A DNA stretch of 64,000 nt from a marine gamma proteobacterium HTCC2080 (GTDB lineage Bacteria; Pseudomonadota; Gammaproteobacteria; Pseudomonadales; Halieaceae), in the NCBI GenBank assembly GCA_000169115.1, contig AAVV01000003.1:186001-250000 (forward strand), in the 5' to 3' direction. The translations under genes and the position numbers were made by a program. The notes beneath the pieces were generated by a model that ran no database searches, was not told the DNA's origin, and saw nothing but the letters and a program-made list of their open reading frames with translations. Below are positions 4,911-57,874 of this stretch, in pieces. The number at the start of each line of letters is the position of its first letter. Within the stretch, counting starts at the first letter, position 1.

Positions 4911-4918
4911 ACAAAATA

Positions 4919-5719
4919 ATGGGAAAGCTCGTCGCCGGCCTGATCGGTTTCTTTACCCTCGGTATTGTCGGTCTACTGTTTGGTATTGCTATTGGACACG
5001 CCTTTGACCGGGGACTTTGGCAGGCGCTTCAAGCGGCTAGCCCTGACAATCTTGCTCGCAGTCAGAAGCAGTTTTTCGATACGACATTTACCTTGTTGGG
5101 TTATGTCGCTAAGTCCGATGGTCGGGTTAGTGAGGCAGAGATTGCTCAGGCCGAAGCAATGTTTCGGCAGCTGCGGCTTAATCCCACCCAAAGAAGTTCT
5201 GCAATACAGCACTTTCGTGAAGGCGCCGAGCCCGGTTTTGATCCTGACTCGACAGTAACGGCCTTTGCCGCAAGAGTTGGACAACGGCGACAAGTTCAAC
5301 AAACGCTGTTTGCTTTTCTCGCGAGCATGGCTTTGGCTGACGGAGAGTTGGCTGAACCCGAGCGGGCCGCATTGCACCATATTGCGAGCTTGCTGGGTAT
5401 GCCGACACAAGCTGTTGATAGGGTGGTGGCGATGCTGGTGGCACAGTCGCGTTTCCACACCGGTGGCGGAGCTGGGTATAGCACGGGGACCCCGGCACCC
5501 CGTGACCGTATAAACGATGCTTATCAGGCGCTGGGGGTCAGTGCTTCTGACTCCAACGAGGTCATTAAGAAGAGTTACCGTCGGTTGATGAGCGAGAACC
5601 ATCCTGACAAATTAATCGCCAAGGGTGTTCCTGATGAAATGGTTAAGCTGGGCACTGCTCGGTCTCAGGAAATATCAACAGCTTACGAGGTCATAAAATC
5701 GGCTCGAGGAATGAAATAA
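4919..5719 (+). CDS. djlA: DjlA-like membrane co-chaperone (TerB + J domain)
   Basis: Membrane-anchored DnaK co-chaperone of DjlA type. An N-terminal transmembrane helix (GLIGFFTLGIVGLLFGIAIG) is followed by a TerB-like helical domain with two similar halves (YVAKSDGRVSEAE and SMALADGELAEPE), then a C-terminal J domain (DAYQALGVSASDSNEVIKKSY) carrying the HPD tripeptide needed to stimulate DnaK ATPase. Length is 266 aa, close to the E. coli protein. An in-frame TTG at 4907 overlaps the previous stop; the ATG at 4919 is chosen as the more conventional start. It probably forms an operon with the acyltransferase. Its clients are unknown. Confidence 0.92.
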   Translation: MGKLVAGLIGFFTLGIVGLLFGIAIGHAFDRGLWQALQAASPDNLARSQKQFFDTTFTLLGYVAKSDGRVSEAEIAQAEAMFRQLRLNPTQRSSAIQHFREGAEPGFDPDSTVTAFAARVGQRRQVQQTLFAFLASMALADGELAEPERAALHHIASLLGMPTQAVDRVVAMLVAQSRFHTGGGAGYSTGTPAPRDRINDAYQALGVSASDSNEVIKKSYRRLMSENHPDKLIAKGVPDEMVKLGTARSQEISTAYEVIKSARGMK

Positions 5720-43221: not shown

Positions 43222-43232
43222 GAGGAAATAAC

Positions 43233-44162
43233 ATGGACCTGTCTAAACTGAGCGGAAAAATTTGGCTCGACGGTGAGCTCGTGCCCTGGCAGGAGGCAAA
43301 GGTGCATGTTTTGACCCACACCTTTCACTACGGCGTTGGTGTTTTTGAAGGCGTCCGTGCCTACAGCACACCCGATCAAGGCACTTGTATATTTCGATTA
43401 AAAGAGCACACCGATCGCCTGTTTCGCTCTGCAAAAATTTTGCAGATGAATATGCCTTGGGACAAAGACGCTTTAAACGAGGCCCAACGCGAGGTGGTTC
43501 GAGTTAACGGTCTCGAGGAAGGTTATTTGCGCCCGATGTGTTTTTTAGGGTCAGAGGGGATGGGCTTGCGGGCCGACAATTTAAAAACCCATGTCATGAT
43601 CGCAGCTTGGCCCTGGCCTTCTTATATGGACCCTGAGGCTCGGGATCGCGGTATCGCCGTGCGCACATCAAGCTACACTCGCCATCACGTCAATATTACG
43701 ATGTGTAAAGCCAAGGCTAACGGCAATTACATCAACTCTATCCTAGCTCTGCGCGAGGCCATTGATAGTGGCTGCGAAGAAGCGCTTATGCTCGATAACG
43801 AGGGTTATGTCGCCGAGGGAAGTGGTGAAAACTTTTTTATGGTGCGTGATGGCGTTATTTACACTCCGGACCTGACATCCTGTCTCGAAGGCATCACCCG
43901 CGATGCTATTTTTAAAATAGCCCACGATGAAGGGTATGAAGTTCGCGAAAGGCGTATCACACGGGACGAAGTTTATATCTGTGATGAGGCGTTTTTCACC
44001 GGCACCGCAGCAGAGGTGGTGCCCGTAAGGGAGCTTGATAACCGTCAGGTCGGTGCGGGTGGCCGCGGCCCCATCACCGAAAAGCTTCAGAGCATCTACT
44101 TCCAAAGCGTTCGCGGTGAGCATGCTCGGTATCGTGATTGGTTAACCCCGGTTACTGATTGA
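43233..44162 (+). CDS. ilvE: branched-chain amino acid aminotransferase
   Basis: PLP-dependent fold-type IV aminotransferase (309 aa) for the last step of Leu, Ile and Val synthesis. Diagnostic elements are FHYGVGVFEGVRAYS, the PLP-lysine segment CKAKANGNYINS, EALMLDNEGYVAEGSGENFFMV and the phosphate-binding FFTGTAAEVVPVREL. The SD AGAGGAA lies just upstream of the ATG. It works with LeuA and IlvD encoded earlier in the window. Confidence 0.97.
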   Translation: MDLSKLSGKIWLDGELVPWQEAKVHVLTHTFHYGVGVFEGVRAYSTPDQGTCIFRLKEHTDRLFRSAKILQMNMPWDKDALNEAQREVVRVNGLEEGYLRPMCFLGSEGMGLRADNLKTHVMIAAWPWPSYMDPEARDRGIAVRTSSYTRHHVNITMCKAKANGNYINSILALREAIDSGCEEALMLDNEGYVAEGSGENFFMVRDGVIYTPDLTSCLEGITRDAIFKIAHDEGYEVRERRITRDEVYICDEAFFTGTAAEVVPVRELDNRQVGAGGRGPITEKLQSIYFQSVRGEHARYRDWLTPVTD

Positions 44163-44201
44163 CGATCGCTTCGTCAGGCACCGCTTAATATAAGGTTGGT
44201 T

Positions 44202-45029
44202 ATGACTCAGGCACATTTTGAAACACTGACCTCGGGTATTCGCTATCGACACTGGCAGCCTGCGGCGAAGCCTCGTGCCACCATTTTGTTAATTCATGGG
44301 CTGGGGGAGCACAGCGGGCGCTATCAAGGGGTTGCAGCTGCCCTGACCGCTCGGGGTTTTGCCGTCGTGGCCCCGGATCACTTGGGCCACGGCGAGTCAC
44401 CTGGGCACCGTGTGTTTGTAAACCACTTTGATGACTATTTAGCGGGAGTTCGAGATTGCCGTCAGGTGCTGGCGCAGAGCTATCCCGACTTACCTTGTTT
44501 TGTCTTAGGTCACAGCATGGGGGGGCTTATTACGGGCCGGCTCTTGCTTGAAGACCAAGGCCAGTACCACGGTGCGCTATTGAGTGGCCCCGCATTTGCG
44601 GCGGCTGAAGTACCGCCGGCGCCGGTTATGTGGATTGGGCGTTTGCTCGCAAAACTCATGCCTCGCGCAGGCATGTTGGCCCTTGACGGCTCTGGGGTTA
44701 GTCGTGATGCGGAGGTGGTGGCCGCCTACGAAGCTGATCCTCTGGTAAATCACGGGAAGGTCACTGCGGGCTTGGGCATTGCGCTTTTTGACGCCATGGA
44801 TCGCGTTATGACAGAGGCGGGCTCGATTACATTGCCCATGCTCATTATGCACGGCGGCGCTGATACGCTAGCCGCGCCCATAGGTTCCGAGACCTTCGCA
44901 GCTAAGGTTGGCGCTTCAGATTTAACCCTCAAAGTTTTGCCCGGTCTCTATCATGAGATTTTCAACGAACCCGAAGGCGAGGAAATTATTGGTCAGTATG
45001 CCGATTGGATAGAGGCTCGCCTGCCTTGA
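44202..45029 (+). CDS. alpha/beta hydrolase, monoacylglycerol lipase-like
   Basis: Serine hydrolase (275 aa) of the Hydrolase_4 / lysophospholipase group. The oxyanion region LLIHGLGEHSGRY and the nucleophile Ser105 in LGHSMGGL are clear; the acid in HGGADTLAAP and the His in GLYHEIFNEPE complete the triad. No signal peptide, so cytoplasmic. ATG 44202 has AAGG 7 nt upstream; a TTG at 44196 is in frame. Its stop overlaps the rfbD start (TGATG), so it may be co-transcribed with the rhamnose genes; its real substrate is unknown. Confidence 0.88.
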   Translation: MTQAHFETLTSGIRYRHWQPAAKPRATILLIHGLGEHSGRYQGVAAALTARGFAVVAPDHLGHGESPGHRVFVNHFDDYLAGVRDCRQVLAQSYPDLPCFVLGHSMGGLITGRLLLEDQGQYHGALLSGPAFAAAEVPPAPVMWIGRLLAKLMPRAGMLALDGSGVSRDAEVVAAYEADPLVNHGKVTAGLGIALFDAMDRVMTEAGSITLPMLIMHGGADTLAAPIGSETFAAKVGASDLTLKVLPGLYHEIFNEPEGEEIIGQYADWIEARLP

Positions 45030-45907
45030 TGTCAAAGGCTCTGGTCTGTGGTGCGGGAGGGCAACTGGGCCAAGAGTTAGTTTTGACCTGCCCCGAGCAG
45101 TGCCAAGCTATACCTATGACGCGATCAATGTTGGACATCGCCGATCCTACTCAGGTGGCAAAAGCGCTGGATGACGCTGAGCCTACTTGGGTGATAAATG
45201 CAGCAGCTTTTACCGCTGTCGACGCCGCAGAGTCAGAACCGGAGTTGGCACACTATGTTAATGCCAAAGGTCCCGAAGTTCTTGCGCTGCAGTGTCGAGA
45301 GCGCAATATTCGTTTTCTACACGTCTCTACAGATTTTGTTTTCGACGGGACGCAAGGCCACCCTTATGCCCCCTATACTGAACCAAACCCACTAGGTGTT
45401 TACGGTCGCAGCAAGTTAGATGGGGAGAGTGCTGTAGTGGCTGCGGGAGGCAGCCCGGTAATTTTGAGAACAGGTTGGGTGTACTCCCGTCACGGCGGTA
45501 ATTTTGTGAAAACTATGTTGCGCTTAATAGCCGAGCGAGAGCAGCTGTCGGTAGTAGAGGATCAGATCGGTACGCCAACCTGGGCCCGGGGACTGGCATT
45601 GGCGTGTTGGGGCTTAGCCGACCATGGCGACGCATCGGGTATATATCATTGGAGCGATGCTGGGGCCTGCAGCTGGTATGACTTTGCCGCTGCTATTCGT
45701 GACATCGCGCTTGAATTGGGCCTGCTTCGCCAAGCGGCGACTCTGTTGCCGATACCTGCGTCCCAGTACCCTACCCCAGCTCAGCGCCCGGCTTACAGCG
45801 TGTTGGATAAGACTTTGACACGGAATCTGCTGGGCCATTCCGGCCATCATTGGACAAGTCAGTTACGTGCAATGCTTATCGACCTGCAACAAAAAGAGAA
45901 GCAGTAG
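45029..45907 (+). CDS. rfbD: dTDP-4-dehydrorhamnose reductase
   Basis: Last step of dTDP-L-rhamnose synthesis (292 aa, SDR family). The NAD(P) site is CGAGGQLGQEL, the catalytic Tyr-Lys pair is in YGRSKLDGE, and STDFVFDG is the conserved third motif. Start ATG 45029 overlaps the hydrolase stop by one base; the longer frame from 45005 lies inside that gene. It is followed 2 bp later by rfbB. Confidence 0.96.
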   Translation: MSKALVCGAGGQLGQELVLTCPEQCQAIPMTRSMLDIADPTQVAKALDDAEPTWVINAAAFTAVDAAESEPELAHYVNAKGPEVLALQCRERNIRFLHVSTDFVFDGTQGHPYAPYTEPNPLGVYGRSKLDGESAVVAAGGSPVILRTGWVYSRHGGNFVKTMLRLIAEREQLSVVEDQIGTPTWARGLALACWGLADHGDASGIYHWSDAGACSWYDFAAAIRDIALELGLLRQAATLLPIPASQYPTPAQRPAYSVLDKTLTRNLLGHSGHHWTSQLRAMLIDLQQKEKQ

Positions 45908-45909
45908 CT

Positions 45910-46974
45910 ATGACACGGTCTTTAATGGTCACTGGAGCCGCAGGGTTTATCGGCGCTAACTTCGTTTATCACTGGGTTCAGGCGCACCCCAACGATACCG
46001 TAGTGGCTTACGATGCTCTGACTTATGCAGGTAATCGAGCCAGTCTGGCACCCCTTGAGGCTTCTGGACAGCTGCATTTCGTGCAGGGCGATATCTGTGA
46101 CGGTGACCGGGTCAGTCAGACCTTGGTTAATTATGACGTCGATACTTTGGTGCACTTCGCCGCTGAGAGTCACGTTGATCGCTCTATAACTGGGCCTGAT
46201 GCTTTTATTCAAACTAATCTAGTGGGCACCCACACTCTATTGGCAGCGGCTCGTACTCATTGGCTGTCGGGAACGGGTCGCCCTCACCGCTTTCATCACG
46301 TGTCCACCGACGAGGTATTTGGCTCACTAACTCGTGATGCGCCAGCTTTTACCGAAGACCTACGCTACGAGCCCAACTCACCCTACTCAGCTAGCAAGGC
46401 GGGAAGCGATCACTTAGTGCGGGCTTACCACCATACTTACGGATTGGACGTCACCACCAGTAATTGCTCCAACAACTATGGCCCCTTCCATTTTCCTGAA
46501 AAATTGATCCCCCTTTGCTTGACCAACATTTTGGACGGCCGACCCTTGCCGGTTTACGGCGATGGTACAAATATTCGCGACTGGCTTTATGTTGTCGATC
46601 ACGCCCGCGGTATTGATCGGGTGATTGATTCGGGTAAATCGGGAGAGACTTATAATATTGGTGGCAATAATGAGTGGGCAAATCTTGCGATTGTGGAGCT
46701 TCTTTGTGACCATCTTGATGCGTGTTTTGCGTCTGAGCCAGGTCTGGCCGCGCGTTTTCCGAAGTCCCCTGCTGTGAATCGAGAGTCGCGGGGGCTGATT
46801 CAGTTTGTCGACGACCGAGCAGGTCATGATTGGCGCTACGCTATCGACGCAAACAAGATTGAAAAAGAATTAGGTTTTGTACCTAGCGAAACTTTTGAAA
46901 CGGGTATCGCCAAAACGCTTAATTGGTATTTAGACAATGAAGACTGGTGGCGGCCATTGCTACAACGCGCCTGA
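45910..46974 (+). CDS. rfbB: dTDP-glucose 4,6-dehydratase
   Basis: Extended SDR enzyme (354 aa) making dTDP-4-keto-6-deoxyglucose. It has the NAD site TGAAGFIGANF, STDEVFGSL with the catalytic Asp-Glu pair, the YSASKAGSDHLV active site and SNNYGPFHFPEKLIPL. The start ATG at 45910 is 2 bp after rfbD; longer in-frame starts lie within rfbD. It is convergent with rfbC, with a 45-bp gap that has no clear terminator. Confidence 0.97.
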   Translation: MTRSLMVTGAAGFIGANFVYHWVQAHPNDTVVAYDALTYAGNRASLAPLEASGQLHFVQGDICDGDRVSQTLVNYDVDTLVHFAAESHVDRSITGPDAFIQTNLVGTHTLLAAARTHWLSGTGRPHRFHHVSTDEVFGSLTRDAPAFTEDLRYEPNSPYSASKAGSDHLVRAYHHTYGLDVTTSNCSNNYGPFHFPEKLIPLCLTNILDGRPLPVYGDGTNIRDWLYVVDHARGIDRVIDSGKSGETYNIGGNNEWANLAIVELLCDHLDACFASEPGLAARFPKSPAVNRESRGLIQFVDDRAGHDWRYAIDANKIEKELGFVPSETFETGIAKTLNWYLDNEDWWRPLLQRA

Positions 46975-47019
46975 TACAACTTGCTGTTGGGAAATTACGA
47001 CAGTGCAGAAAGCCAGAGA

Positions 47020-47571
47020 TTAAAACTCAAACTTGGGAATTTCAGACCAACTCAGGGCACTGGCGTCTTTGGCTGATAGCTCCGGGTTTTCCCCGTTGAC
47101 CAAAGGCCATTGAATGTTGATGTGGGCATCGTTCCAGGCAAGGCTGACTTCGCTTTGGGGATGGTAATAGTCAGTGCATTTGTAAAGAAAATCAGCGGAT
47201 TCAGAAACCACATAGAAACCATGAGCAAAGCCTGAGGGCACCCAAAGTTGAGTTTTATTTTCGGCACTGAGCAGGCAGCCGAACCATTGACCGAAGGTTG
47301 CAGAGTTGGTGCGCAAATCAACAGTAACATCATAAACCGACCCGCTGATTACCCTTACTAATTTACCCTGAGGCTGCTGGGTCTGAAAGTGTAAGCCGCG
47401 GAGTATGCCCTGTCGCGAGCGGGAGTGGTTGTCCTGCACAAAATCAGAGGGTATGCCGGCCTCAGCGAAGGCGCAGCGATTCCAGCTCTCAAGGAAAAAC
47501 CCGCGATCGTCACCAAACACCTTAGGTTTAATAAGCATAACTCCGGATAGCGGTGTCGTTTCAACATCCAT
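47020..47571 (-). CDS. rfbC: dTDP-4-dehydrorhamnose 3,5-epimerase
   Basis: Cupin-fold epimerase (183 aa) of the rhamnose pathway. It has [17 protein letters not shown] near the N-terminus, the catalytic His region [12 protein letters not shown] and [15 protein letters not shown]. The true start ([16 protein letters not shown], 47571) overlaps the rfbA end by 11 bp; the longer open frame to 47739 runs inside rfbA. It forms the minus-strand pair rfbA-rfbC. Confidence 0.96.
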
Positions 47572-48481
47572 CCAAATCAGTCCTTGTATCGCGCAGTAAA
47601 CCTTCAAGATAGACGCCATAACCGCTCTTGGCGAGGGGCTTGGCAAGGGCCAAAAGCTGGTCGGCGTCGATATAGCCCATACGATAGGCGATTTCTTCAG
47701 GGCAGGCGATCTTGAGTCCCTGCCGCTCTTCGACAACACGAATAAAATTAGCCGCGTCGAGCAGCGAGTTGTGAGTACCGGTATCCAGCCACGCTGTGCC
47801 TCGAGACATTACCTCGACCGCAAGGTTTCCCTGTTCCAGATAGGTGCGATTAACATCGGTAATTTCCAATTCACCTCTGGCTGATGGCTGAATATTGCGT
47901 GCAATATCGACAACGTCGTTGTCATAAAAATAAAGACCTGTAACTGCATAGTTCGACCTGGCTACCTCGGGTTTTTCCTCAATACTAATAGCTTGGCCTG
48001 AGCCATCGAACTCCACCACGCCGTATCGTTCGGGATCATTGACGTAATAAGCAAAAACCGACGCGCCGGCCTTTCTCTGCGCAGCAAGACACAATTTTTC
48101 CGTTAAACCACCCCCGTAAAAAATGTTGTCTCCCAGCACCAGGGCCGTGGGCGCATTGCCTATAAAGTCTGCCCCCAGAATAAAGGCCTGAGCAAGGCCA
48201 TCGGGGCTGGGTTGTACGGTGTAGCTGATGTTGAGTCCCCACCGATCTCCGTTCCCCAGAAGGTCAGCGAAAGCCGACTGATCCCGGGGCGTAGTAATAA
48301 TCAAAATATCCCGTATGCCCGCTAGCATTAGGGTGGCTAGGGGATAGTAAATCATGGGCTTGTCATAGATCGGCATAAGTTGCTTGCTGACCGTGCTGGT
48401 GAGTGGGTGCAGCCGCGTGCCGGACCCTCCCGCAAGTATGATTCCCTTGTAAGCTGTGTTGTGCATGTTTAGTCGCACCAT
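47561..48481 (-). CDS. rfbA: glucose-1-phosphate thymidylyltransferase
   Basis: First enzyme of dTDP-rhamnose synthesis (306 aa), joining dTTP and glucose-1-phosphate. The nucleotide loop is [13 protein letters not shown] with the catalytic Lys in [16 protein letters not shown], followed by [14 protein letters not shown] and [16 protein letters not shown]. Two starts are possible, 48481 (MVRLNMHNT) and 48466 (MHNTAYKG); neither has a strong SD. It is transcribed away from the GT4 operon. Confidence 0.96.
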
Positions 48482-48797
48482 GAGTCGCCGGTTGGCAACG
48501 ATAAACCCTTCCTTACGCTTTGTCAGGTCTCGATGTTCACGCGGTAGGTGAGGCCCGCATTAGCTTGAAAGGTGGTTACGTGGACCCACACCTCAGTCAA
48601 TCCAATTCTCTAATAGCGCAAGAGTTCGCAAGTAGGGCCTTGCACTGTAACCTGAACTACCGCGATTCATGCTGCAAACTGGAGTTGTCGAAGCAGCGTT
48701 AAGTGGGCGTATTTATTGACATTCTTAGTCCCAAATTTATGGGCACTCTTAGTGTCAAAAGCTGTACAATCGCGATTTTTTAGCCGGAGAAAGCCCC
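48482..48797. other. rfbA / glycosyltransferase divergent intergenic region
   Basis: About 316 bp with no convincing gene. Near its right end are a direct repeat TCTTAGTnnCAAA (48723-48735 and 48747-48759), a TTGACA (48716-48721) mirrored by TGTCAA (48753-48758), and a TACAAT -10-like box at 48765-48770. The layout suggests the regulated promoter of the GT4 operon. Confidence 0.4.
48765..48770 (+). promoter_or_regulatory. putative -10 box of the GT4 operon promoter
   Basis: TACAAT, with no recognisable -35 at the right distance but with the paired TCTTAGTnnCAAA repeats upstream, so possibly activator-dependent. Transcription from about 48777 would give a 21-nt leader with GGAG ending just before an ATT codon at 48798. 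Confidence 0.35.
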
Positions 48798-48857
48798 ATT
48801 AACGCCTCTGCTCAAAATGTCGGACAGGACCTCTCCATCGCCACCGATGCTGAGCCT

Positions 48858-50159
48858 TTGTCCTCAAGTCCGCTGAGAATAGCGTTGCTGGGTTATCGTT
48901 CGGCACCATTCTCTGGCGGGCAGGGGGTTTACCTCAAATATTTAAGCCGTGCGCTGGTGAAACTTGGACACACAGTTACTGTGATCTCGGGTCCGCCCTA
49001 TCCTGACCTCGATGTTGAAGTACAGCTGAAAAAGCTACCCAGCCTAGATTTGTATGCCCATGGCCTAAAGTCGGCCAGCATTGGTCAGTTATTTAAGGAT
49101 CCTTTGGCGCGGACTGAATGGTTGAGCAAATTAACCGGTGGCTTTATAGAGCCCTGGACCTTTGGTGAGCGGGCCCGGGGTTGGTTGTTGGCACATGCTG
49201 ACGAGTTCGATGTTGTTCACGACAATCAGACGCTGTCAGACGGGATATTGGATATTCAGAAAGCGGGTATCCCGCTGGTCACTACGATTCATCATCCGAT
49301 TACCCGGGATCGTAAATTAGCGTTGGCCGCAGAGCCGCGCTGGACGCGTCGGTTGATGATTCGACGCTGGCACGATTTTCTGACGATGCAAACGGCTGTT
49401 GCCCGTCAGTTAAATTACATCGTGACCGTTTCACAGGCGTCTCGCACCGATATTATCGCCGATTTTGGCGTTGATCCCGCTACAATCGCGGTGATGTACA
49501 ACGGCGTCGAGGCTGACTTATTTAGACCTATGCCACATATCGAACGAAAGCCTGCACAAATTATGGCAACGGCGTCGGCTGATACGCCGCACAAGGGGCT
49601 ACAAGTTTTATTGCGTGCTGCTGCCATCCTTCGAAAAGAAGGTCGGGAGCTTAATTTGGTATTGGTAGGCAAGCCCCGAGTGGGGGGTGCGACAGAGCAG
49701 CTGGTATCTCAGCTGAATTTAGAAGCGCACATTCGTTGGGTGAGCGGTGTAGATCACGCGACGATTGTTGAGTTATATGCCGAAAGTACGTTGGCGGTTG
49801 TACCTTCCCTTTATGAAGGTTTTGGCTTGCCAGCTGTTGAGGCTATGGCCTGCGGCATTCCTCTTATTGTGAGTGACGGCGGGGCCTTGCCCGAAGTGGC
49901 TGGAGAGGGTGGCGTGGTGGTCCCTGCAGGAGACTCTGAGGCGCTTGCAACTGCCATCAAAGCTTTACTGGATGATCCGGGAGCTAGAGTGGCGTTGGGG
50001 GAGCTCGCTCGTGAACGTGGTGTAAACGAGTTTAGCTGGGATGTCTGTGCGGCTCGATTGGTGCGCTACTATCGAGGGGCTATGGCAGGGCAGTCAGGGG
50101 CTAATTTTTTGCAACCTGCTCAACCTCTACCCGTGCAGGGGGATGTTCTCCAGTGCTAA
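48858..50159 (+). CDS. GT4-family glycosyltransferase
   Basis: GT-B fold retaining glycosyltransferase (433 aa from the TTG at 48858). The N-terminal acceptor domain shows RIALLGYRSAPFSGGQGVYLKYLSRALVKLGH; the donor domain carries ATASADTPHKGL and the E-x7-E signature in SLYEGFGLPAVEAMACGIPL. The start is doubtful: TTG 48858 has no SD, while an in-frame ATT at 48798 has GGAG 8 nt upstream and would add 20 residues. It overlaps the downstream methyltransferase (GTG inside its 3' end). The acceptor is unknown; the nearby dTDP-rhamnose genes make rhamnose one possible donor sugar. Confidence 0.92.
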   Translation: MSSSPLRIALLGYRSAPFSGGQGVYLKYLSRALVKLGHTVTVISGPPYPDLDVEVQLKKLPSLDLYAHGLKSASIGQLFKDPLARTEWLSKLTGGFIEPWTFGERARGWLLAHADEFDVVHDNQTLSDGILDIQKAGIPLVTTIHHPITRDRKLALAAEPRWTRRLMIRRWHDFLTMQTAVARQLNYIVTVSQASRTDIIADFGVDPATIAVMYNGVEADLFRPMPHIERKPAQIMATASADTPHKGLQVLLRAAAILRKEGRELNLVLVGKPRVGGATEQLVSQLNLEAHIRWVSGVDHATIVELYAESTLAVVPSLYEGFGLPAVEAMACGIPLIVSDGGALPEVAGEGGVVVPAGDSEALATAIKALLDDPGARVALGELARERGVNEFSWDVCAARLVRYYRGAMAGQSGANFLQPAQPLPVQGDVLQC

Positions 50160-50869
50160 CCGTAGACTTTCAAAGCCTTGCCTTAGGTTCGGGGCAGACG
50201 CTTTTGGATGTCGGCTGTGGTGAGGGTCGGCATACCTTAGCCGCTTATTTAAAGTCCGGGGTGACGGCGGTGGGCGTTGACTTGGGTTTAGCTGATTTGG
50301 AGACAGCTCGTGGCCGCATTGCCGATATGGAGGCCTACAATCCTCAAGGAGAAATAGAGTTTCTTCAGGGTGATGCGACCGCCTTACCGTTTCCCGACAA
50401 CCACTTCGATCATGTAATTTGCAGTGAAGTGCTTGAGCATATTCCCAACTTTATCGCCGTGATTGGTGAGTTAAATCGCGTGTTAAAGCCCGGGGGAAAT
50501 TTGTGTGTGAGTGTTCCTAGGGCTTGGCCAGAGCGATTTTGCTGGTGGCTGAGTAAGGATTATTACAATACACCCGGTGGTCATATTCGTATTTTTAATG
50601 CGGGCTTTCTGCGACAAGAAATTCACCGTCATGGCCTCAACTGCTATCGCCAGCATGGCGCTCACGCCTTACACGTGCCTTACTGGTGGCTTCGCTGCCT
50701 GCTATGGCGTGAGGGCGAGGAGCAGCCTTGGGTCGCGGCGTATCACCGCTTTTTGGTTTGGGACCTCATGGAGCAGCCAGCTTTAACACGATGGATAGAC
50801 AAGCTCTGTAATCCCTGGATGGGGAAAAGTGTTGTGATGTATTTCAACAAGCCTCGAGGTGTCAATTAG
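50153..50869 (+). CDS. class I SAM-dependent methyltransferase
   Basis: Methyltransferase_11-type Rossmann protein (238 aa). The SAM-binding motif is LLDVGCGEGRHTLAAYLKSG, motif II includes VGVDLGLADLE, and QGDATALPFPDNHFDHVICSEVLEHIPN is the typical post-II block. The GTG start lies within the end of the GT4 gene (7-bp overlap), and its stop shares a base with the next gene. It is embedded between a glycosyltransferase and a toroid protein, so it probably methylates the same glycan or lipid product; the substrate is unknown. Confidence 0.9.
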   Translation: MLTVDFQSLALGSGQTLLDVGCGEGRHTLAAYLKSGVTAVGVDLGLADLETARGRIADMEAYNPQGEIEFLQGDATALPFPDNHFDHVICSEVLEHIPNFIAVIGELNRVLKPGGNLCVSVPRAWPERFCWWLSKDYYNTPGGHIRIFNAGFLRQEIHRHGLNCYRQHGAHALHVPYWWLRCLLWREGEEQPWVAAYHRFLVWDLMEQPALTRWIDKLCNPWMGKSVVMYFNKPRGVN

Positions 50870-51936
50870 TGAGTGGCCTGTACTTGAGCCGTGGCCTGTA
50901 TCCCCGTGAGTTTTTAAAACCTACGGTCGATTTTCTGCTGCGCACCCAGCGCCCTTGGGGGGAGATTCCCTGGTTTGAGGGAGGGCATTCTGATCCCTGG
51001 GATCACACCGAAGCGGCCATGGGGCTGTCGATTGCCGGAGAGTTCACAGCGGCTGAGCGCGCTTATCGCTGGCTTGCGGACACGCAGTTGGATGATGGCA
51101 GTTGGTGGCGCAGTTACCGCGAGGGTGAGCCTGACAATCCCGATCGTCGGGAATCCAACTATGTGGCTTATGTTGCCACGGGCGTTTGGCACCATTATCT
51201 CATCACTGGTGACATGGCGTTTTTGCAAGAGTTTTTCCCCGTTGTCGATGCCGCTATGGATTTTGTACTAAAACTGCAGGGTGCGGCCGGGGAGATCGAC
51301 TGGGCTGTCGACGCGAATGGGGCTCCTATGGGCGACGCTCTGGTCACGGGTTGCAGCTCTATTTACAAAAGCCTTGAATGTGCGGGACATATTGCCGCAA
51401 CCCTTGGCGTGCAGCGCAATGAATGGATCGAAGCTCGGGCGGCCTTAGGCGTTGCTCTGCGCTCCCGCCCCGATCGCTTCGATAGAACTTGGGCTTCTAA
51501 ATCGCGTTATGCCATGGATTGGTTTTATCCAATCATTACGGGCTGGGTGCAGGGGCCGACTGCAATTGAACGCCTTGATGCGCGCTGGAACGAATTTGTT
51601 GAGACCGGTATGGGTTGCCGCTGCGAAACCCAAGAACCTTGGGTAACCGTTGCCGAATCTTGCGAGCTGACCCTAGCGCTATTGGCTGCGGGTGATCGTA
51701 ATCGTGCGGCAGAGCTATTTTCTTGGCTGACCCAGTGGCGCGATGGCGACGGTGCCTGGTGGACGGGGTATCAATTTGTCGAGAAGGTGTTGTGGCCCGA
51801 TGAGAAGCCTACATGGACTGCCGGCGCTATTATGCTCGCTGCCGATGCACTGACCGACCACACACCGGCCGCCACCCTGTTTCTCGAAGTGTGTGAACCC
51901 CCCCAACCACTGTCGGTCAGCGCTGCTCGAGATTAA
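50869..51936 (+). CDS. alpha/alpha-toroid protein (prenyltransferase/squalene-cyclase-like fold)
   Basis: 355-aa soluble protein rich in Trp and helical hairpins. Repeating blocks such as FLLRTQRPWGEIPWFEGG, WLADTQLDDGSWWRSY and WLTQWRDGDGAWWTGYQ resemble the QW-like repeats of terpenoid cyclase / prenyltransferase alpha-alpha barrels, but the DxDD and DxDTAE catalytic motifs of squalene cyclases are not seen. GTG start, sharing one base with the methyltransferase stop. An alternative reading is a six-hairpin glycosidase-like or glycan-binding protein. Its function is unknown and context is the only clue. Confidence 0.75.
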   Translation: MSGLYLSRGLYPREFLKPTVDFLLRTQRPWGEIPWFEGGHSDPWDHTEAAMGLSIAGEFTAAERAYRWLADTQLDDGSWWRSYREGEPDNPDRRESNYVAYVATGVWHHYLITGDMAFLQEFFPVVDAAMDFVLKLQGAAGEIDWAVDANGAPMGDALVTGCSSIYKSLECAGHIAATLGVQRNEWIEARAALGVALRSRPDRFDRTWASKSRYAMDWFYPIITGWVQGPTAIERLDARWNEFVETGMGCRCETQEPWVTVAESCELTLALLAAGDRNRAAELFSWLTQWRDGDGAWWTGYQFVEKVLWPDEKPTWTAGAIMLAADALTDHTPAATLFLEVCEPPQPLSVSAARD

Positions 51937-51937
51937 G

Positions 51938-52627
51938 TTAGGCGAGTCGACGCAGCGCTCTCAGTGAGTCAACAGCATCACAGGCTTCGTAAAGCCCAGA
52001 ATCAATGGCGAGGCGCCAAATAGTGAAAGGCGCCTGCCCGCCTGTGCTGGCGTCGGGAAATACATCGTGGATGGCCAGAATGCCCCCGGGTAGCACCCGA
52101 TGGCCTACGCTGCGCCAGTCGGTTAATGCGGCCTCAAGACTATGGCCACCGTCAATAAAGACCATGCCGAGCGTGTGCGGCAAGATGGCATTTGCCTGTT
52201 GGGTGCCGGCCACAATCGGAATGACGGTATCCTCAACCCCAGCTTGAGCAATGTTACGACGGAACTCGCGCAGGGTATCAACACGACCTTCACCATCCAC
52301 AAGGTCAGCATCGAAAAACATTTCACCTGGTTGGTGCTCTTCTGAGCCGCGATGGTGATCAAGCGCAAGCACGACGGTGCCGGCTAATTTAGCGCCTTGT
52401 GCCAGCCAAATTGTGGAGCGCCCGCACCAACTGCCTATTTCTAGGACAGGCCCGAGGTTTCCAGCCTCGCAAGCCAGGGCAGATAATAATTCGCCCTCGT
52501 CATCGGTGAGAAAGCCTCGGACATTAGTCCCGGGGGGGGTGGCCATGAGTCGCTCCAAATCGCGCTTAATTTGCGCCCAGTATACTGGAGGGCGAGGGGT
52601 TATCTGTGAGGCACTTGCATGAAGCAC
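51938..52627 (-). CDS. class I SAM-dependent methyltransferase (Methyltransf_24-like)
   Basis: Second methyltransferase of the region (229 aa), convergent with the toroid gene (1 bp between them). The SAM motif is PVLEIGSWCGRSTIWLAQGA, followed by VLALDHHRGSEEH and the acidic FIDGGHSLEAALTDWRSVG block typical of Methyltransf_24 / cephalosporin-hydroxylase-like O-methyltransferases. The start is GTG 52627; a shorter start is possible. It lies downstream of tolC on the same strand after 312 bp. A link to the GT4 operon is inferred from adjacency only. Confidence 0.87.
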   Translation of the reverse strand: MLHASASQITPRPPVYWAQIKRDLERLMATPPGTNVRGFLTDDEGELLSALACEAGNLGPVLEIGSWCGRSTIWLAQGAKLAGTVVLALDHHRGSEEHQPGEMFFDADLVDGEGRVDTLREFRRNIAQAGVEDTVIPIVAGTQQANAILPHTLGMVFIDGGHSLEAALTDWRSVGHRVLPGGILAIHDVFPDASTGGQAPFTIWRLAIDSGLYEACDAVDSLRALRRLA

Positions 52628-52939
52628 CTGCTGGCGGGCGGGTGTGGTTTGGTGTACCTGTTAATGAGGCGTTGGCTGGGTGGCTTTAAAACGACGACCG
52701 CAACCTTTGCTAAGACTTCCGCTACCACGTTTGTTACGCATTCAAGGTTTTGTAGACGTCATTACAAGGTCGATTTGAGTGCCGTTGTGTTGGAGGTCAC
52801 CATGGCGATTGTTACCGTGCATCTTGTTTTTGCTGACAGAAATTGTGCTGTTGAACCCCCTGATATGCTCAGCAGTGATGGCGCGGGGGCTCAATAAAAC
52901 CAAGAGAGCGAGGGCTAGCGTCAATCCTGATCTGGTTAA
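52628..52939. other. tolC / methyltransferase intergenic region
   Basis: 312 bp with no supported gene. A 60-codon minus-strand frame (52742-52924) opens with a hydrophobic signal-like N-terminus but has a TTG start with no spaced SD. No intrinsic terminator with a U-tract is evident after tolC. Confidence 0.4.
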
Positions 52940-54412
52940 TCAGGGCGTCGTGCCGCCGGGCTCACTTTCAGTGCCCGCGGCAGATGCTGGCGGGGGTGGA
53001 ATTAGGGCTGCATCGAGTCGCGCGACATCGTCGGGTGATAGCGTACCCGAGTTTTCTTTGAGCCTGAGCAGGTTCACGACATAGTCGTAGCGTGCGTTGG
53101 CGTAGTCTCGTAACGAGGTGTAAAGCAGGTTTTGTGCGTTCAGCACGTCAACAATGTTTCGCGTTCCCACGTCATAGCCGGCTTCAGTAGCATCGAGTGC
53201 GCTTTGCGCCGAGCGAATCGACTGCTTACGAGCTCTGACGCGGGCGGCATCAGATTTCACAGTCATGTGCAGCGAGCGTGCGTTAGTGATCGTCGTGCGC
53301 TCAAGGTTTACGCGGCTTTCTTTCGCAGCAATATGTTGTTGAGCCGATTGTCGCCGCTGGGCATGCAGGCGCCCACCCTGAAAAATGGGCACGTTTAAGC
53401 GAACTTCCCACACTTCACGGGTATCTTGGGAGTCGGGTTGTATTTGGAATAATTGTCGCGGCTCAGAGATCTGGCTTCCATCGGTGTCTGTGTCCGAGTA
53501 TTGATAACTCGCCGTGACGGTCGGAGCATGCCCCATAGCGCTCGCTTTGGCCCCCTGCCTCGCTGACTCTTCGGCGTAGCGTGCTGCTGCTAGATCGTAG
53601 TTATTATCCAAGGCAAACTTTACCCACGCTGCACGATCCGCAGGCGCCGGGGGCTGTGCCTCAAAGTCTTCACTGAGACGGAAAAGGTCGCCGTGTGTTT
53701 GGCCGGTCAAAATAGACAGTCGCTCCTTGGCCACCGCGACATTGTTTTCTTCAACAATGCGCTGAACCTCCGCTAAATCTCGCGCCGCTTCAGCTTCGTA
53801 GACGTCAGTGATGGCAATGAGGCCAACTTCAAAACGTTGCTGGGTTTGTTCCAGTTGTCGTGAGAAAGCGCGTTCAGCGGCTGAGGCAGCTGCTAAATTA
53901 TCTTGAGCTCGCAGGACGGACAAGTAAGCATCGACGGTGCGTACAATCAAATTTTGCGTTGCGGCAGCAAATTCCGCCTCGGCTTGTTTGCTGAACTCCT
54001 GGCCTGACTGCAAGTTGTACCAGGCAGAGAGATCAAACAGGGGCTGAGCCAGAGCGACATTCCAGCCCTCGGTTTCGGTGTCTCGTTTGTTAAAGCCATC
54101 GGCGATGATGGGAACGGTTTGGCCAGTACTGGGATCGCCCTCGAAGCCTACGATTTGTGGGCTTACTGTCTCATTTACACTGCCAGAGATACTGTACCCT
54201 GCGCTTACTTGGGGTAGGAGTGCTGACAAGGCCAGATTTTCTGTTTCCAAATTGGCAAGGTATTGGGCTTCCTGCGCGCGCAGCTGAGCATCGTTTTGCA
54301 GCGCCAGTTCATAAATATCGAGTAACGTGTCGCTGTAGCTCTGTGAGCTTATGGGCATTAAGACCGCCACGGCGAGCCCCAGCAGGGTGCGGCGGATAAA
54401 CAGGGGTGTCAT
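52940..54412 (-). CDS. tolC: TolC-family outer membrane efflux channel
   Basis: Outer membrane factor (490 aa) that forms the trimeric exit duct for RND/ABC exporters and type I secretion. A signal peptide precedes TLLDIYELALQNDAQLRAQEAQYLANLE, the start of the first of two structural repeats; the second starts near LAAARYAEESARQGAKASAMG. Long heptad-rich helices and the conserved VGTRNIVDVLNAQNLLY loop are present. It is divergent from yqiB-cpdA-parE, as in E. coli. No export pump genes are adjacent, so it is a stand-alone TolC. Confidence 0.95.
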   Translation of the reverse strand: MTPLFIRRTLLGLAVAVLMPISSQSYSDTLLDIYELALQNDAQLRAQEAQYLANLETENLALSALLPQVSAGYSISGSVNETVSPQIVGFEGDPSTGQTVPIIADGFNKRDTETEGWNVALAQPLFDLSAWYNLQSGQEFSKQAEAEFAAATQNLIVRTVDAYLSVLRAQDNLAAASAAERAFSRQLEQTQQRFEVGLIAITDVYEAEAARDLAEVQRIVEENNVAVAKERLSILTGQTHGDLFRLSEDFEAQPPAPADRAAWVKFALDNNYDLAAARYAEESARQGAKASAMGHAPTVTASYQYSDTDTDGSQISEPRQLFQIQPDSQDTREVWEVRLNVPIFQGGRLHAQRRQSAQQHIAAKESRVNLERTTITNARSLHMTVKSDAARVRARKQSIRSAQSALDATEAGYDVGTRNIVDVLNAQNLLYTSLRDYANARYDYVVNLLRLKENSGTLSPDDVARLDAALIPPPPASAAGTESEPGGTTP

Positions 54413-54551
54413 GGAAACTCCTTAAGTGAGCGCGGTTTCGCGGGCAATAGTCTAACACTCGACGCAGCCCGGTGAAGGTGAACTTTTAACCTGATACGAC
54501 AGATCCAAAACAGTCCGTCGTTGTTTCTATCCTGCGCTGGGCCTCAGCTAT

Positions 54552-54560
54552 TGCTACACT
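54552..54560 (+). promoter_or_regulatory. putative extended -10 promoter of yqiB-cpdA
   Basis: TGCTACACT matches the extended -10 pattern TGnTAnnnT. Initiation about 7 bp downstream would fall at or near the first ATG (54567), which favours the later ATG at 54597, preceded by AAGGA. Confidence 0.4.
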
Positions 54561-54566
54561 CCGACT

Positions 54567-55055
54567 ATGGCTAAAGAGAATCCTATGAAGGAACAAATGG
54601 GTCGTACCCGAAACAGGCGGTCGCGTTACAGCGTAGACATTGGCGATTTGCACAGTTTGTGCGAAACCAACTATCTACGTTTGCTGCGCGTTTTTCCGGG
54701 TTATGAAACGAATAACTCTGTTGAGATCACAGCGGATCACTTAACCTTAGTGTTTGATGTTGTTGAGCGCACCCGCTACACCACGCTGTTCCGTGTAACT
54801 CAGCGGGGTCAGCAGAGCTTACCGGCAATGAATTTAGATCTTAGGCTCTACCACGATGCCAGCATGGCTGAAATTGTAGCCTTTCAGCGCCATCGACACC
54901 TCGAGGGTCGTTACGATTACCCCAATCCCAACATGTACCAACGGGATGAAAAAATTCAGCAGAATCGATACCTCGCCGAAATACTCGAGCTCTGTTTAGC
55001 TGAGGGCCGACTAACGACTGATTTCACTTCATGGATGCCTTCTGGCCATGAGTAG
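54567..55055 (+). CDS. yqiB: DUF1249 family protein (YqiB)
   Basis: Cytoplasmic protein of 162 aa (152 aa if the ATG at 54597, which has AAGGA 4 nt upstream, is the start). It contains the DUF1249 domain: LCETNYLRLLRVFPGYETNNSVEI, then LRLYHDASMAEIVAFQRHR and YPNPNMYQRDEKIQQNRYLAEIL. Function unknown, but it is constantly linked with cpdA and parE in gammaproteobacteria. It overlaps cpdA by 8 bp. Its usual neighbour nudF is absent on its upstream side. Confidence 0.92.
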   Translation: MAKENPMKEQMGRTRNRRSRYSVDIGDLHSLCETNYLRLLRVFPGYETNNSVEITADHLTLVFDVVERTRYTTLFRVTQRGQQSLPAMNLDLRLYHDASMAEIVAFQRHRHLEGRYDYPNPNMYQRDEKIQQNRYLAEILELCLAEGRLTTDFTSWMPSGHE

Positions 55056-55875
55056 TGCTTTACGTGGTAATTACACCCTTAATAACGGTGATACCCTCAC
55101 GCTCGTTCAGGTCACCGATGCCCATCTTATGGGCGTTCGCGGTGGCCGATTACTCAACGTCGATACCGATGATTCTCTGGCTGCTGTTCTTGAGCTGGTC
55201 GAGGCTCGCCCGGAGCCACCCGATGCACTGTTGATTACCGGTGATATCGCCGGAGATGGCGCAGGTGACGCCTATCAGCGCTTCGCACAGGCACTGGAGG
55301 CCATTCCCGCTCCAAGTTTTTGGTTGCCCGGTAACCACGATGACTGCGATGAGTCAGTGGTAGATCGCGAGCGCTTTATCCGAACCGTTACAAACCCCCA
55401 TTGGCTGGTTGTGATGCTGGATTCTCAGCAAACCGATGAAGTGGGGGGGTATCTTGCAGCAAATGAGCTCGACGCACTCTCTCAGGCTGTCGACAGGGCT
55501 AATCAGGAGGGGAAGCACCTGCTTGTGGCCTTGCATCATCCCTTACAACCAGTGGGTTGTGATTGGTTAGACCCCCAGCGCGTCGCTAACAGTTCGGCAT
55601 TTGAGCTTGAGGTGCAGCGCTGTCGAAATCAGGTGGTGGTCATAGCGGGGCATGTTCATCAAGAAAGTGACCAGGTGAGTGGCAACATTCGCTACCTCAC
55701 GACACCATCCACGTGCATTCAATTTGCGCCTAATCAGGTAAATTTTAAGGTAGGCGACCAGGCACCCGGATACCGTTGGTTGCGATTAGCACCCTCGGGT
55801 GAGATTGAGACTGGTGTCGAACGGGTCACCGACCGGGAGTTTCCGGTAGATCTAGACTCGGGCGGCTATCTTTAA
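55048..55875 (+). CDS. cpdA: 3',5'-cyclic-AMP phosphodiesterase
   Basis: Calcineurin-fold metallophosphoesterase (275 aa) that hydrolyses cAMP and so tunes CRP activity. The full dimetal motif set is present: VTDAHLMG, TGDIAGDG, LPGNHDDCDE, ALHHP and AGHVHQES. The YRWLRLAPSG C-terminus is CpdA-like. It lies between yqiB (overlapping) and parE (109 bp), with the usual intervening yqiA missing. Confidence 0.95.
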   Translation: MSSALRGNYTLNNGDTLTLVQVTDAHLMGVRGGRLLNVDTDDSLAAVLELVEARPEPPDALLITGDIAGDGAGDAYQRFAQALEAIPAPSFWLPGNHDDCDESVVDRERFIRTVTNPHWLVVMLDSQQTDEVGGYLAANELDALSQAVDRANQEGKHLLVALHHPLQPVGCDWLDPQRVANSSAFELEVQRCRNQVVVIAGHVHQESDQVSGNIRYLTTPSTCIQFAPNQVNFKVGDQAPGYRWLRLAPSGEIETGVERVTDREFPVDLDSGGYL

Positions 55876-55920
55876 GCTTAAAATACGCGGCGGGATGGGC
55901 TCAGTGCCTGTTTCGGCTGA

Positions 55921-55935
55921 TTCATGAGTCATGAA
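55921..55935. promoter_or_regulatory. 15-bp palindrome upstream of parE
   Basis: TTCATGA-G-TCATGAA, a perfect inverted repeat with one central base, 50 bp upstream of the parE ATG and 3 bp before a TTGACC -35-like hexamer (55939-55944). It looks like an operator for a dimeric regulator; I do not recognise a known consensus. Confidence 0.45.
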
Positions 55936-55984
55936 AAATTGACCAAACAATAGTCTGATACCGACAGAGAATGACAAAACGCCA

Positions 55985-57874
55985 ATGAGCCAGTATAACG
56001 CCGATGCAATTGAGGTCCTCACCGGGTTAGAGCCCGTGCGCAAACGTCCCGGTATGTACACCGATACCCTGCGGCCCAATCACCTCGCTCAAGAGGTAAT
56101 CGACAACTCGGTAGACGAGGCTTTAGCCGGTCATGCTGATCAGGTAGACGTTGTCTTGCACAGCACCGGTGGTATTAGCATTCAAGATAACGGCCGGGGT
56201 ATGCCGGTCGATTTGCACCCGGTTCAAAAGCTGCCTGGGGTCGAGGTTATTTTATCGACCCTACATGCCGGCGGTAAATTTTCAGACAAAAATTATCAAT
56301 TTAGTGGTGGCCTCCATGGCGTCGGCGTGTCGGTAGTCAACGCGCTGTCAAAAAGGCTCGATATTACGATTAAGCGCGATGGCAACATTTATACGATGGC
56401 TTTTGAGGGCGGCGAAAAAGTTGAAGACCTTGCGGTAGCCGGTACCTGCGGCAAACGTAACACCGGTACTCAAATTCGTTTTGACCCCGACCCACAGTAT
56501 TTTGACTCTCCCAATTTTTCCATGCCTCGTTTAATTCACGTCCTGCGCGCCAAGGCCGTGCTTTGCCCGGGTCTTCGGGTCACGCTGCTCGATGAGAAAA
56601 AGAATGAGCGCAGCGAATGGTTTTATGAAGATGGTATTTCTGATTATCTGATGGATGCGACCATCGATTATCCCGTTATTCCTGAAAAGCCCTTTACGTA
56701 TCACTTTAGTGGCGAAACAGAGGCTGTTGATTGGGCCATTCAGTGGCTACCTGAGGGAGGCGATGTAGTTGCTGAGTCCTATGTCAATTTAATACCGACA
56801 GCCCAGGGAGGAACCCACGTTAACGGATTGCGCTCGGGCTTACTTGAGGCTTTGCGCGAATTCTGTGAGCTTCGCAGTCTCTTGCCCCGTGGCGTAAAGC
56901 TCACCGCAGAGGATATTTGGGACCGCTGTTGTTTTGTACTGTCGTCAAAGCTTCAGGATCCGCAATTTTCTGGGCAGACCAAAGAGCGTCTGTCTTCCCG
57001 GGAGGCTGCAGGCTTTGTTTCTGGCGTGGCCAAAGATGCCTTTAGCCTCTGGTTAAACCAGCACACCGCCGAGGCGGAGTTGTTAGCTGAGCTGTGTATT
57101 AATCGCGCGCAAGCGCGCTTGCGGTCGGCCAAAAAAGTTGTGCGAAAAAAGGTGACCTCCGGCCCTGCACTGCCGGGCAAGCTGGCAGACTGCACCTCTG
57201 AAGACCCCGCCTATGGCGAGTTATTTCTCGTCGAGGGAGACTCGGCGGGTGGCTCGGCCAAACAAGCTCGAAACCGTGAGTTTCAGGCGATCTTGCCGCT
57301 GCGCGGTAAAATTTTGAATACCTGGGAGGTCGATGCCCAAGAAATTCTCGCCTCCGCAGAGGTTTACAATATATCGGTGGCTTTAGGGATCGATCCGGCT
57401 AGCGATGATCTGTCTGGGTTGCGCTATCACAAGGTCTGCATTCTTGCTGACGCAGACTCCGACGGTCTGCACATTGCGACCCTGATCTGCGCACTATTTT
57501 TACGGCATTTCCAGCCGCTGGTGCGAGCGGGGCATGTTTATGTCGCCATGCCGCCCTTGTATCGAATCGATGTCGGTAAAGAGGTGTATTACGCACTCGA
57601 CGACGCTGAGCGCAACGGCATACTCGAGCGTTTGGCGGCAGAAAATAAGCGTGCCAAACCCAACGTCCAGCGTTTTAAGGGGTTGGGAGAGATGAATCCA
57701 GGGCAGCTCCGCGAGACAACAATGGATCCTGATACTCGACGGTTGGTGCAGTTGGTGCTCGATGCCGATGCCGATACCCACGGCACTTTTGATATGCTGC
57801 TGGCCAAGAAACGATCAGGTGACAGAAAAACTTGGCTTGAGTCGAAGGGCGACTTGGCCGACATCGCCGGATAA
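55985..57874 (+). CDS. parE: DNA topoisomerase IV subunit B
   Basis: ATPase subunit (629 aa) of topoisomerase IV, which decatenates replicated chromosomes. The GHKL ATPase domain shows EVIDNSVDEALAGHAD, DNGRGMPVDLHP and GGLHGVGVSVVNALS; the transducer domain follows to about 400; the TOPRIM domain has FLVEGDSAGGSAKQARNR and LADADSDGLHIATL with the Mg-binding acids. The length and the DADSDG variant fit ParE rather than GyrB (no GyrB insertion). parC is not in the window. Confidence 0.97.
   Translation: MSQYNADAIEVLTGLEPVRKRPGMYTDTLRPNHLAQEVIDNSVDEALAGHADQVDVVLHSTGGISIQDNGRGMPVDLHPVQKLPGVEVILSTLHAGGKFSDKNYQFSGGLHGVGVSVVNALSKRLDITIKRDGNIYTMAFEGGEKVEDLAVAGTCGKRNTGTQIRFDPDPQYFDSPNFSMPRLIHVLRAKAVLCPGLRVTLLDEKKNERSEWFYEDGISDYLMDATIDYPVIPEKPFTYHFSGETEAVDWAIQWLPEGGDVVAESYVNLIPTAQGGTHVNGLRSGLLEALREFCELRSLLPRGVKLTAEDIWDRCCFVLSSKLQDPQFSGQTKERLSSREAAGFVSGVAKDAFSLWLNQHTAEAELLAELCINRAQARLRSAKKVVRKKVTSGPALPGKLADCTSEDPAYGELFLVEGDSAGGSAKQARNREFQAILPLRGKILNTWEVDAQEILASAEVYNISVALGIDPASDDLSGLRYHKVCILADADSDGLHIATLICALFLRHFQPLVRAGHVYVAMPPLYRIDVGKEVYYALDDAERNGILERLAAENKRAKPNVQRFKGLGEMNPGQLRETTMDPDTRRLVQLVLDADADTHGTFDMLLAKKRSGDRKTWLESKGDLADIAG

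Follow-up and report, generated by a model that had tools for sequence, protein, structure and literature searches.

A predicted methylmannose polysaccharide gene cluster in a marine gammaproteobacterium and its relatives, with a likely AUU start codon in manT

The four-gene cluster of HTCC2080

The window analysed here is a stretch of 64,000 nucleotides from the marine gamma proteobacterium HTCC2080, family Halieaceae (assembly GCA_000169115.1, contig AAVV01000003.1, positions 186,001 to 250,000, forward strand), whose genome comprises 3,576,081 bases in 25 contigs and is 99.44% complete. It harbors a compact group of four genes, which would direct the synthesis and recycling of methylmannose polysaccharide (MMP), located in the window as follows.

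48798-50159, forward strand: GT4 protein of 453 aa with an ATT start, predicted manT orthologue (open reading frame list, Pfam, PDB match)
50153-50869, forward strand: Methyltransf_11/23 protein, putative meT3 (Pfam, gene position)
50869-51936, forward strand: toroid protein of 355 aa, predicted mmpH orthologue (PDB match, predicted fold)
51938-52627, reverse strand: Methyltransf_24 protein, predicted meT1 orthologue (Pfam, PDB match)

The manT and meT3 genes overlap by 7 bp and meT3 and mmpH by 1 bp, while meT1 faces mmpH tail-to-tail across a single base (51937). The open reading frames and the sequence thus bore out the layout described in a first-pass annotation of this DNA, three overlapping genes with a facing methyltransferase at 1 bp, but not the gene fusion mentioned in it, as overlaps only are present. 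Pfam backed the GT4, Methyltransf_11/23 and Methyltransf_24 assignments and gave nothing above cut-off for the 355-aa toroid protein, and an Rfam search of positions 46000-54500 returned zero matches.

Identity of the encoded proteins

Each of the four proteins was compared with all PDB sequences. The best match of the toroid protein was 7QSJ, the methylmannose polysaccharide hydrolase MmpH, with an E-value of 1.7e-88, the next match lying at 0.0017; the identity to MmpH of the mycobacterium M. hassiacum was 45.8% over 323 columns. An AlphaFold2 model of the protein (pLDDT 86.7) matched 7QSJ at a TM-score of 0.90, and in the fold search the next family reached about 0.64-0.74, with far worse E-values. 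The protein is thus predicted, from sequence and model, to be an MmpH orthologue, an alpha-endomannosidase with an (alpha/alpha)6 toroid that would cut MMP. Two other identities were considered: a terpene cyclase or prenyltransferase was ruled out by the same comparison, in which the value of 0.0017 belonged to a GH95 entry and a diphosphate synthase scored 0.94, and an oligosaccharide amylase was rejected, TIGR01577 scoring 53 bits, far under its cut-off of 820.7.

The GT4 protein matched 7QSG best (E-value 6.1e-99; next match 2.9e-24) and was 46.0% identical to ManT of M. hassiacum across 411 columns. Although the table labels 7QSG as a D-inositol 3-phosphate glycosyltransferase, we read it as ManT because it is the companion of 7QSJ and its sequence carries the ManT residues as numbered in the paper, and the window protein is predicted to be a ManT orthologue, an alpha-(1->4)-mannosyltransferase. 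The best match of the Methyltransf_24 protein was 6G7D (E-value 2.2e-39; next match 0.0033), labelled as a methyltransferase domain protein, which we take to be MeT1. Both share the stretches DHHxGSEEHQPG and IHDVFPD..GGQAPF, and the facing gene would accordingly encode an MeT1 orthologue, a 1-O-methyltransferase predicted to cap the reducing end of the chain. The identity between these three structurally solved enzymes and the window proteins amounted to 40-46%.

For the Methyltransf_11 protein, only generic matches and no solved orthologue were found in the PDB. Its fold search likewise returned generic class I methyltransferases, the nearest being RebM (TM-score 0.66, root-mean-square deviation 7.9) and AtmM, weak matches with no bearing on the substrate. 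From its position and fold class, the protein is designated a putative MeT3, a class I S-adenosylmethionine-dependent methyltransferase whose expected target is O3 of mannose. In M. hassiacum (MHAS_04402-04405) and M. avium (MAV_2755-2758), the order of locus tags is ManT, pMeT3, MmpH, MeT1 (PMC9883506), and the putative meT3 occupies the pMeT3 place in the M. hassiacum order. A crude hydropathy scan of the four proteins revealed no strongly hydrophobic segment. The first-pass annotation could not assign the four genes to a pathway it could name; the PDB matches of MmpH, ManT and MeT1 supply that name, the MMP pathway, and the toroid protein matches a characterised enzyme, MmpH, an outcome that the annotation itself had named as counting against its reading.

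Gene order and co-occurrence in relatives

The relatives considered were the best 80 of 160 obtained from one scan of genome contigs with the toroid gene; among the matches listed, the closest named relative was a Luminiphilus metagenome-assembled genome, 95% identical. In 69 of the 80, the genes for ManT and MeT3 preceded mmpH on its own strand and that for MeT1 followed it in facing orientation (intergenic insertions were not scored). Because this order and orientation recur so widely, the arrangement is more than chance. MeT1 was missing from the stretch in six relatives, and ManT and/or MeT3 in five. Four of the latter loci lie at contig ends (L006, L030, L037 and L048), which does not explain the fifth (L053). 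Among the six loci lacking a nearby MeT1, the genomes of four carry it elsewhere (L042, L051, L068 and L080), one locus is at a contig end (L058), and one belongs to a genome outside those searched (L017). By our reading, twenty further loci (L098-L117) comprised 12 with the plain arrangement, three with a gap or a gene between members (L100, L108 and L112) and five with MeT1 elsewhere. Altogether, MeT1 was found elsewhere in 9/9 searched genomes whose stretch had none.

The possibility that the first-pass annotation named as refuting its reading, a lack of co-occurrence of the four genes in other genomes, was clearly dispelled by these relatives and by the 8/8 class members outside the order that carry the whole set. 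Nonomuraea, an actinobacterium, showed the same order and orientation, mmpH and meT1 being separated by a single gene, which in Nonomuraea gerenzanensis is a DUF1702 gene (L091:7163-8167, forward strand).

Conservation of catalytic and substrate residues

The MmpH alignment comprised 102 sequences (the window copy, the 80 relatives, Nonomuraea and 20 further genomes) plus M. hassiacum, and the ManT alignment 97 sequences, some sequences in both sets being partial at contig ends. In MmpH, D47 was kept in 101/102, E262 and E265 in 102/102 and W315 in 101/102, and the window copy retains all of D47, D50 and E262. In ManT, K240, E313 and E321 were present in 97/97 and H142 in 96/97 (one gap), all four having equivalents in the window protein. 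The importance of D47 and E262 of MmpH and of K240, E313 and E321 of ManT was shown by mutating the M. hassiacum enzymes (PMC9883506).

The proposed pathway and its rivals

MMP is a chain of 11-14 3-O-methylmannoses joined by alpha-(1->4) bonds, its reducing end carrying a methyl aglycon, and the products released by the endomannosidase MmpH serve as primers for ManT (PMC9883506, Maranha et al. 2023). In the proposed scheme, ManT would lengthen alpha-(1->4)-mannan chains using GDP-mannose, the putative MeT3 would methylate O3 of the mannoses, MeT1 would methylate the reducing end of the chain, and MmpH would cleave mature chains to short fragments from which further ones are primed, the polymer being expected to remain in the cytosol. 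A model for GDP-mannose synthesis (TIGR01479) scored above cut-off in the HTCC2080 genome. The model of type I fatty acid synthase (FAS-I), PF08354, had no match there and, in the control set, matched only in Corynebacterium glutamicum. A PF13720 gene, which we take to represent the C-terminal domain of LpxA, was present, as expected of a Gram-negative bacterium. Considering homology, gene order, conserved catalytic residues, co-occurrence and donor supply, it is very probable that the four genes form a complete cluster for MMP biosynthesis and recycling in a FAS-I-negative, Gram-negative host. Those five lines are shown here, and how the enzymes act in HTCC2080, what MeT3 does and what the polymer is used for are inferred. 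Since the host has no FAS-I match, the use of MMP, if it is made here, cannot be FAS-I modulation.

Several observations weigh against this assignment. In these organisms the MMP cluster is known from genes alone. No orthologue of MeT3 has been characterised, the mycobacterial pMeT3 itself having putative status (PMC9883506). Residue D50 of MmpH, kept in the window copy, is D in 85/102 sequences and N in 17/102, including Nonomuraea. The equivalent of ManT D293 is D in only 5/97 sequences, being H in the window and mostly H or T elsewhere. D293 was proposed as the contact for the guanine of GDP-mannose from a comparison with PimA (PMC9883506), and given its replacement GDP-mannose is the presumed donor of ManT. 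Since that contact was deduced from PimA, with no mutation described in the part of PMC9883506 consulted, D293 was treated as non-defining for an MMP cluster. The M. smegmatis locus tags, as printed in the same source, give the order ManT, pMeT3, MeT1, MmpH.

A further point against it is that the cluster borders lipopolysaccharide-core genes in some relatives: meT1 adjoins a waaA-like gene in L100 and in L108, and an hldE-like gene in L112. Such neighbors may indicate an envelope role. In this alternative reading, the product is a methylated oligosaccharide similar to MMP but distinct from it, which becomes joined to lipopolysaccharide or to some other glycan of the envelope, hence the envelope genes nearby. 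In L100, an ABC transporter gene lies between manT and meT3 (L100:6817-8715, reverse strand), and in L108 a DUF374 gene (4626-5432, forward strand) lies between meT1 and mmpH, with the waaA-like gene on the other side of meT1. Moreover, tolC adjoins the cluster in the window and TolC matches were found in 62/101 loci examined. In Pseudomonas, the region from ilvE to tolC holds lipopolysaccharide-core genes, which, together with the waaA- and hldE-like neighbors, is the chief ground for retaining this alternative. Oligotropha has an O-antigen containing 3-O-methylmannose, joined through (1->2) links (PMC9883506). Nevertheless, the methyl group that MeT1 places on the reducing end would prevent coupling of the chain to a carrier, and the genomes tested retain meT1, either beside the other genes or at another site. 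MmpH, whose cleavage of the polymer allows its reuse, is likewise conserved, catalytic residues included, and Nonomuraea carries the same set. An envelope glycan was thus considered improbable. In this respect, the synthesis and methylation of a glycan suggested in the first-pass annotation agree with the MMP assignment, whereas the surface location also raised there is unlikely, since MeT1 methylates the reducing end in mycobacteria and the four proteins lack a strongly hydrophobic segment.

The dTDP-rhamnose genes of the window (45005-48481) adjoin the cluster, as had been pointed out, and RmlA matches were obtained in 52/101 loci examined. The four genes might therefore constitute a glycosyltransferase, methyltransferase and toroid operon for an unrelated glycoside linked to rhamnose. 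Two observations argue against it and make it the more remote of these alternatives, with very little probability: the three one-to-one best matches all fall in one characterised pathway, and in 14 of the 101 loci, by our reading of the locus table, manT comes after a lysophospholipase-like gene and no rml gene separates the two. The rhamnose genes were accordingly rejected as an essential part of the cluster, and the link to them drawn in the first-pass annotation is reduced to that of dispensable neighbors. The frame common to many relatives (window 40318-57874; L002-L117) consists of glnE, ilvE, the lysophospholipase-like gene, often rml genes, the MMP cluster, tolC, a DUF1249 gene, cpdA and parE, and in L102, L103 and L105, from outside the order, ilvE directly adjoins manT. 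The rmlC open reading frame of the window (47020-48481, reverse strand), with a GTG start as called, overlaps rmlA by about 180 bp, and the true start of rmlC is probably further in.

Distribution and history of the cluster

With a presence threshold of E <= 1e-20, MmpH was detected in 129/140 genomes of the family of HTCC2080, and in 75/78 of those at least 90% complete. Among sampled genomes, it was found in 83/244 of the order (10 of them from the same family), in 9/369 of the class (HTCC2080 itself and eight outside the order) and in 3/299 of the phylum. All eight class carriers outside the order have the four genes, and three of them are small in genome size (0.9 to 1.3 Mb). Among the named carriers are records of Luminiphilus, Parahaliea, Halioglobus, Haliea, Chromatocurvus, Microbulbifer, Simiduia and Cellvibrio. 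Three mmpH matches in draft genomes (G446:C42, G462:C13 and G543:C19) contain one in-frame stop each (TGA, TGA and TAG, respectively), reflecting either assembly error or a decayed gene.

Contamination with mycobacterial DNA was ruled out by the gammaproteobacterial flanking genes and by the presence of the gene in 129/140 members of the family. In two unrooted trees, two actinobacterial sequences formed their own branch with a support of 1.0 in both, their placement differing between the trees. A recent transfer from mycobacteria is not supported; being unrooted and including only two Actinobacteria, the trees do not give direction and age.

A noncanonical start codon in manT

The start of manT involves two further features.

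48786-48789, forward strand: GGAG, likely Shine-Dalgarno (SD) sequence of manT, 8 nt before ATT; an SD-like 4-mer occurs in relatives
48798-48800, forward strand: manT start codon ATT; ATT or ATC in relatives

The position 48798 had been given as the start of manT in the first-pass annotation. The open reading frame tool skipped this ATT and called TTG 48858 instead, but the relatives make ATT the likely real start. Eight close relatives showed ATT or ATC at the same position. Among 97 loci with a manT match, 46 had an isoleucine-codon start, 14 had GTG at a like place, 32 had no motif, many of these belonging to other families and showing ATG, and five had no readable core. A stricter start motif retained 46 loci, 27 with ATC and 19 with ATT. 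An SD-like 4-mer preceded the codon in 43/46 loci, in comparison with 161/1719 in-frame ATH codons inside manT, a background of 9.4% in this stricter scan and of 17% in an earlier, looser one. Furthermore, substitutions were rarer just after the start codon than before it in 9/9 groups of close relatives, in one of them barely. Thus, an ATH codon is conserved behind an SD sequence, with no conserved canonical start, and in three loci (L026, L050 and L071) ATG, GTG and TTG are absent from the range altogether.

Alternatively, a canonical codon (for the window, TTG 48858) could be the true start of manT, ATT or ATC being incidental. Such a codon is present and preferred by the tool, and in 12 of the 46 relatives some ATG, GTG or TTG with an SD-like 4-mer lies within 40 codons, in three of them (L032, L033 and L044) at the same place; besides, the sequences had already been inspected when the motif that delimits the 46 loci was selected. 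In view of the three loci devoid of a canonical start, the SD enrichment and the substitution pattern, this explanation is unlikely, if less so than the two alternatives weighed above, and ATT/ATC is taken as the likely start. In many Halieaceae-type loci, gene callers would place the manT start elsewhere.

In Escherichia coli, infC and pcnB use AUU starts, against which initiation factor 3 (IF3) discriminates (PMC9410913), and conserved AUU and AUA starts with strong SD sequences have been mapped in Staphylococcus aureus (PMC13009471). The infC gene of HTCC2080 (L118) likewise begins with ATT, and its open frame contains no canonical codon upstream of that position. By means of its AUU/AUC start, manT expression may be held low or respond to IF3.

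Possible significance

MMP has been proposed to bind fatty acyl chains and to modulate FAS-I, and is known from mycobacteria and relatives (PMC2674218). The pathway itself is thus known, and its presence in Gammaproteobacteria seems unreported: no MMP cluster outside Actinobacteria was reported in the literature searched, the coverage of which was incomplete and lacked the 2019 MeT1 paper, and the word proteobacteria is absent from the text of PMC9883506. The one-for-one match of the four genes suggests that the pathway also occurs well beyond the bacteria in which it has been described. If MMP is made in cells devoid of FAS-I, its shared role cannot be FAS-I regulation. Tentatively, and with somewhat less than even confidence, it is proposed that MMP is an old cytosolic polymer of many marine Gammaproteobacteria without FAS-I, that its shared role is another one, and that in Halieaceae its synthesis is gated at translation by the IF3-responsive AUU/AUC start of manT, possibly in connection with cold or growth rate.

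With the cluster in most genomes of the family and a host without a FAS-I match, the relation between MMP and FAS-I becomes directly testable in non-pathogenic, culturable bacteria. M. smegmatis lacking MmpH makes no MMP and grows more slowly at 15 °C only (PMC9883506), which, together with the many marine carriers, renders a role in cold or membrane adaptation testable. In addition, proteins annotated only as GT4, methyltransferase or unknown gain a precise biochemical hypothesis, and the manT start, if true, would be a metabolic addition to the very few genes that use AUU/AUC starts.

Comparison with known systems

The closest known systems are the MMP clusters of M. hassiacum and other nontuberculous mycobacteria, with which the window shares the four genes and, in the case of M. 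hassiacum and M. avium, their locus-tag order, a comparison of order and not of meT1 orientation. The enzymes also have the same catalytic residues as those of the mycobacterial cluster. In contrast to the latter, the window comes from a gammaproteobacterium in which FAS-I gave no match and an LpxA-type gene is present, D293 of ManT is replaced, and manT starts with ATT/ATC. The acetylated MMP of Streptomyces griseus, likened here by its description, is an actinobacterial 3-O-methylmannan with a ManT homologue (PMC9883506), whereas no acetyltransferase was seen inside the window cluster. The mycobacterial 6-O-methylglucose lipopolysaccharide (MGLP) is likewise a cytosolic polymethylated polysaccharide (PMC2674218), differing in sugars and enzymes. 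Regarding the start codon, manT resembles E. coli infC and pcnB in its noncanonical AUU, which is shared by infC of the window genome; unlike them, it encodes a glycosyltransferase, and most of its relatives have AUC rather than AUU (27 versus 19 of 46).

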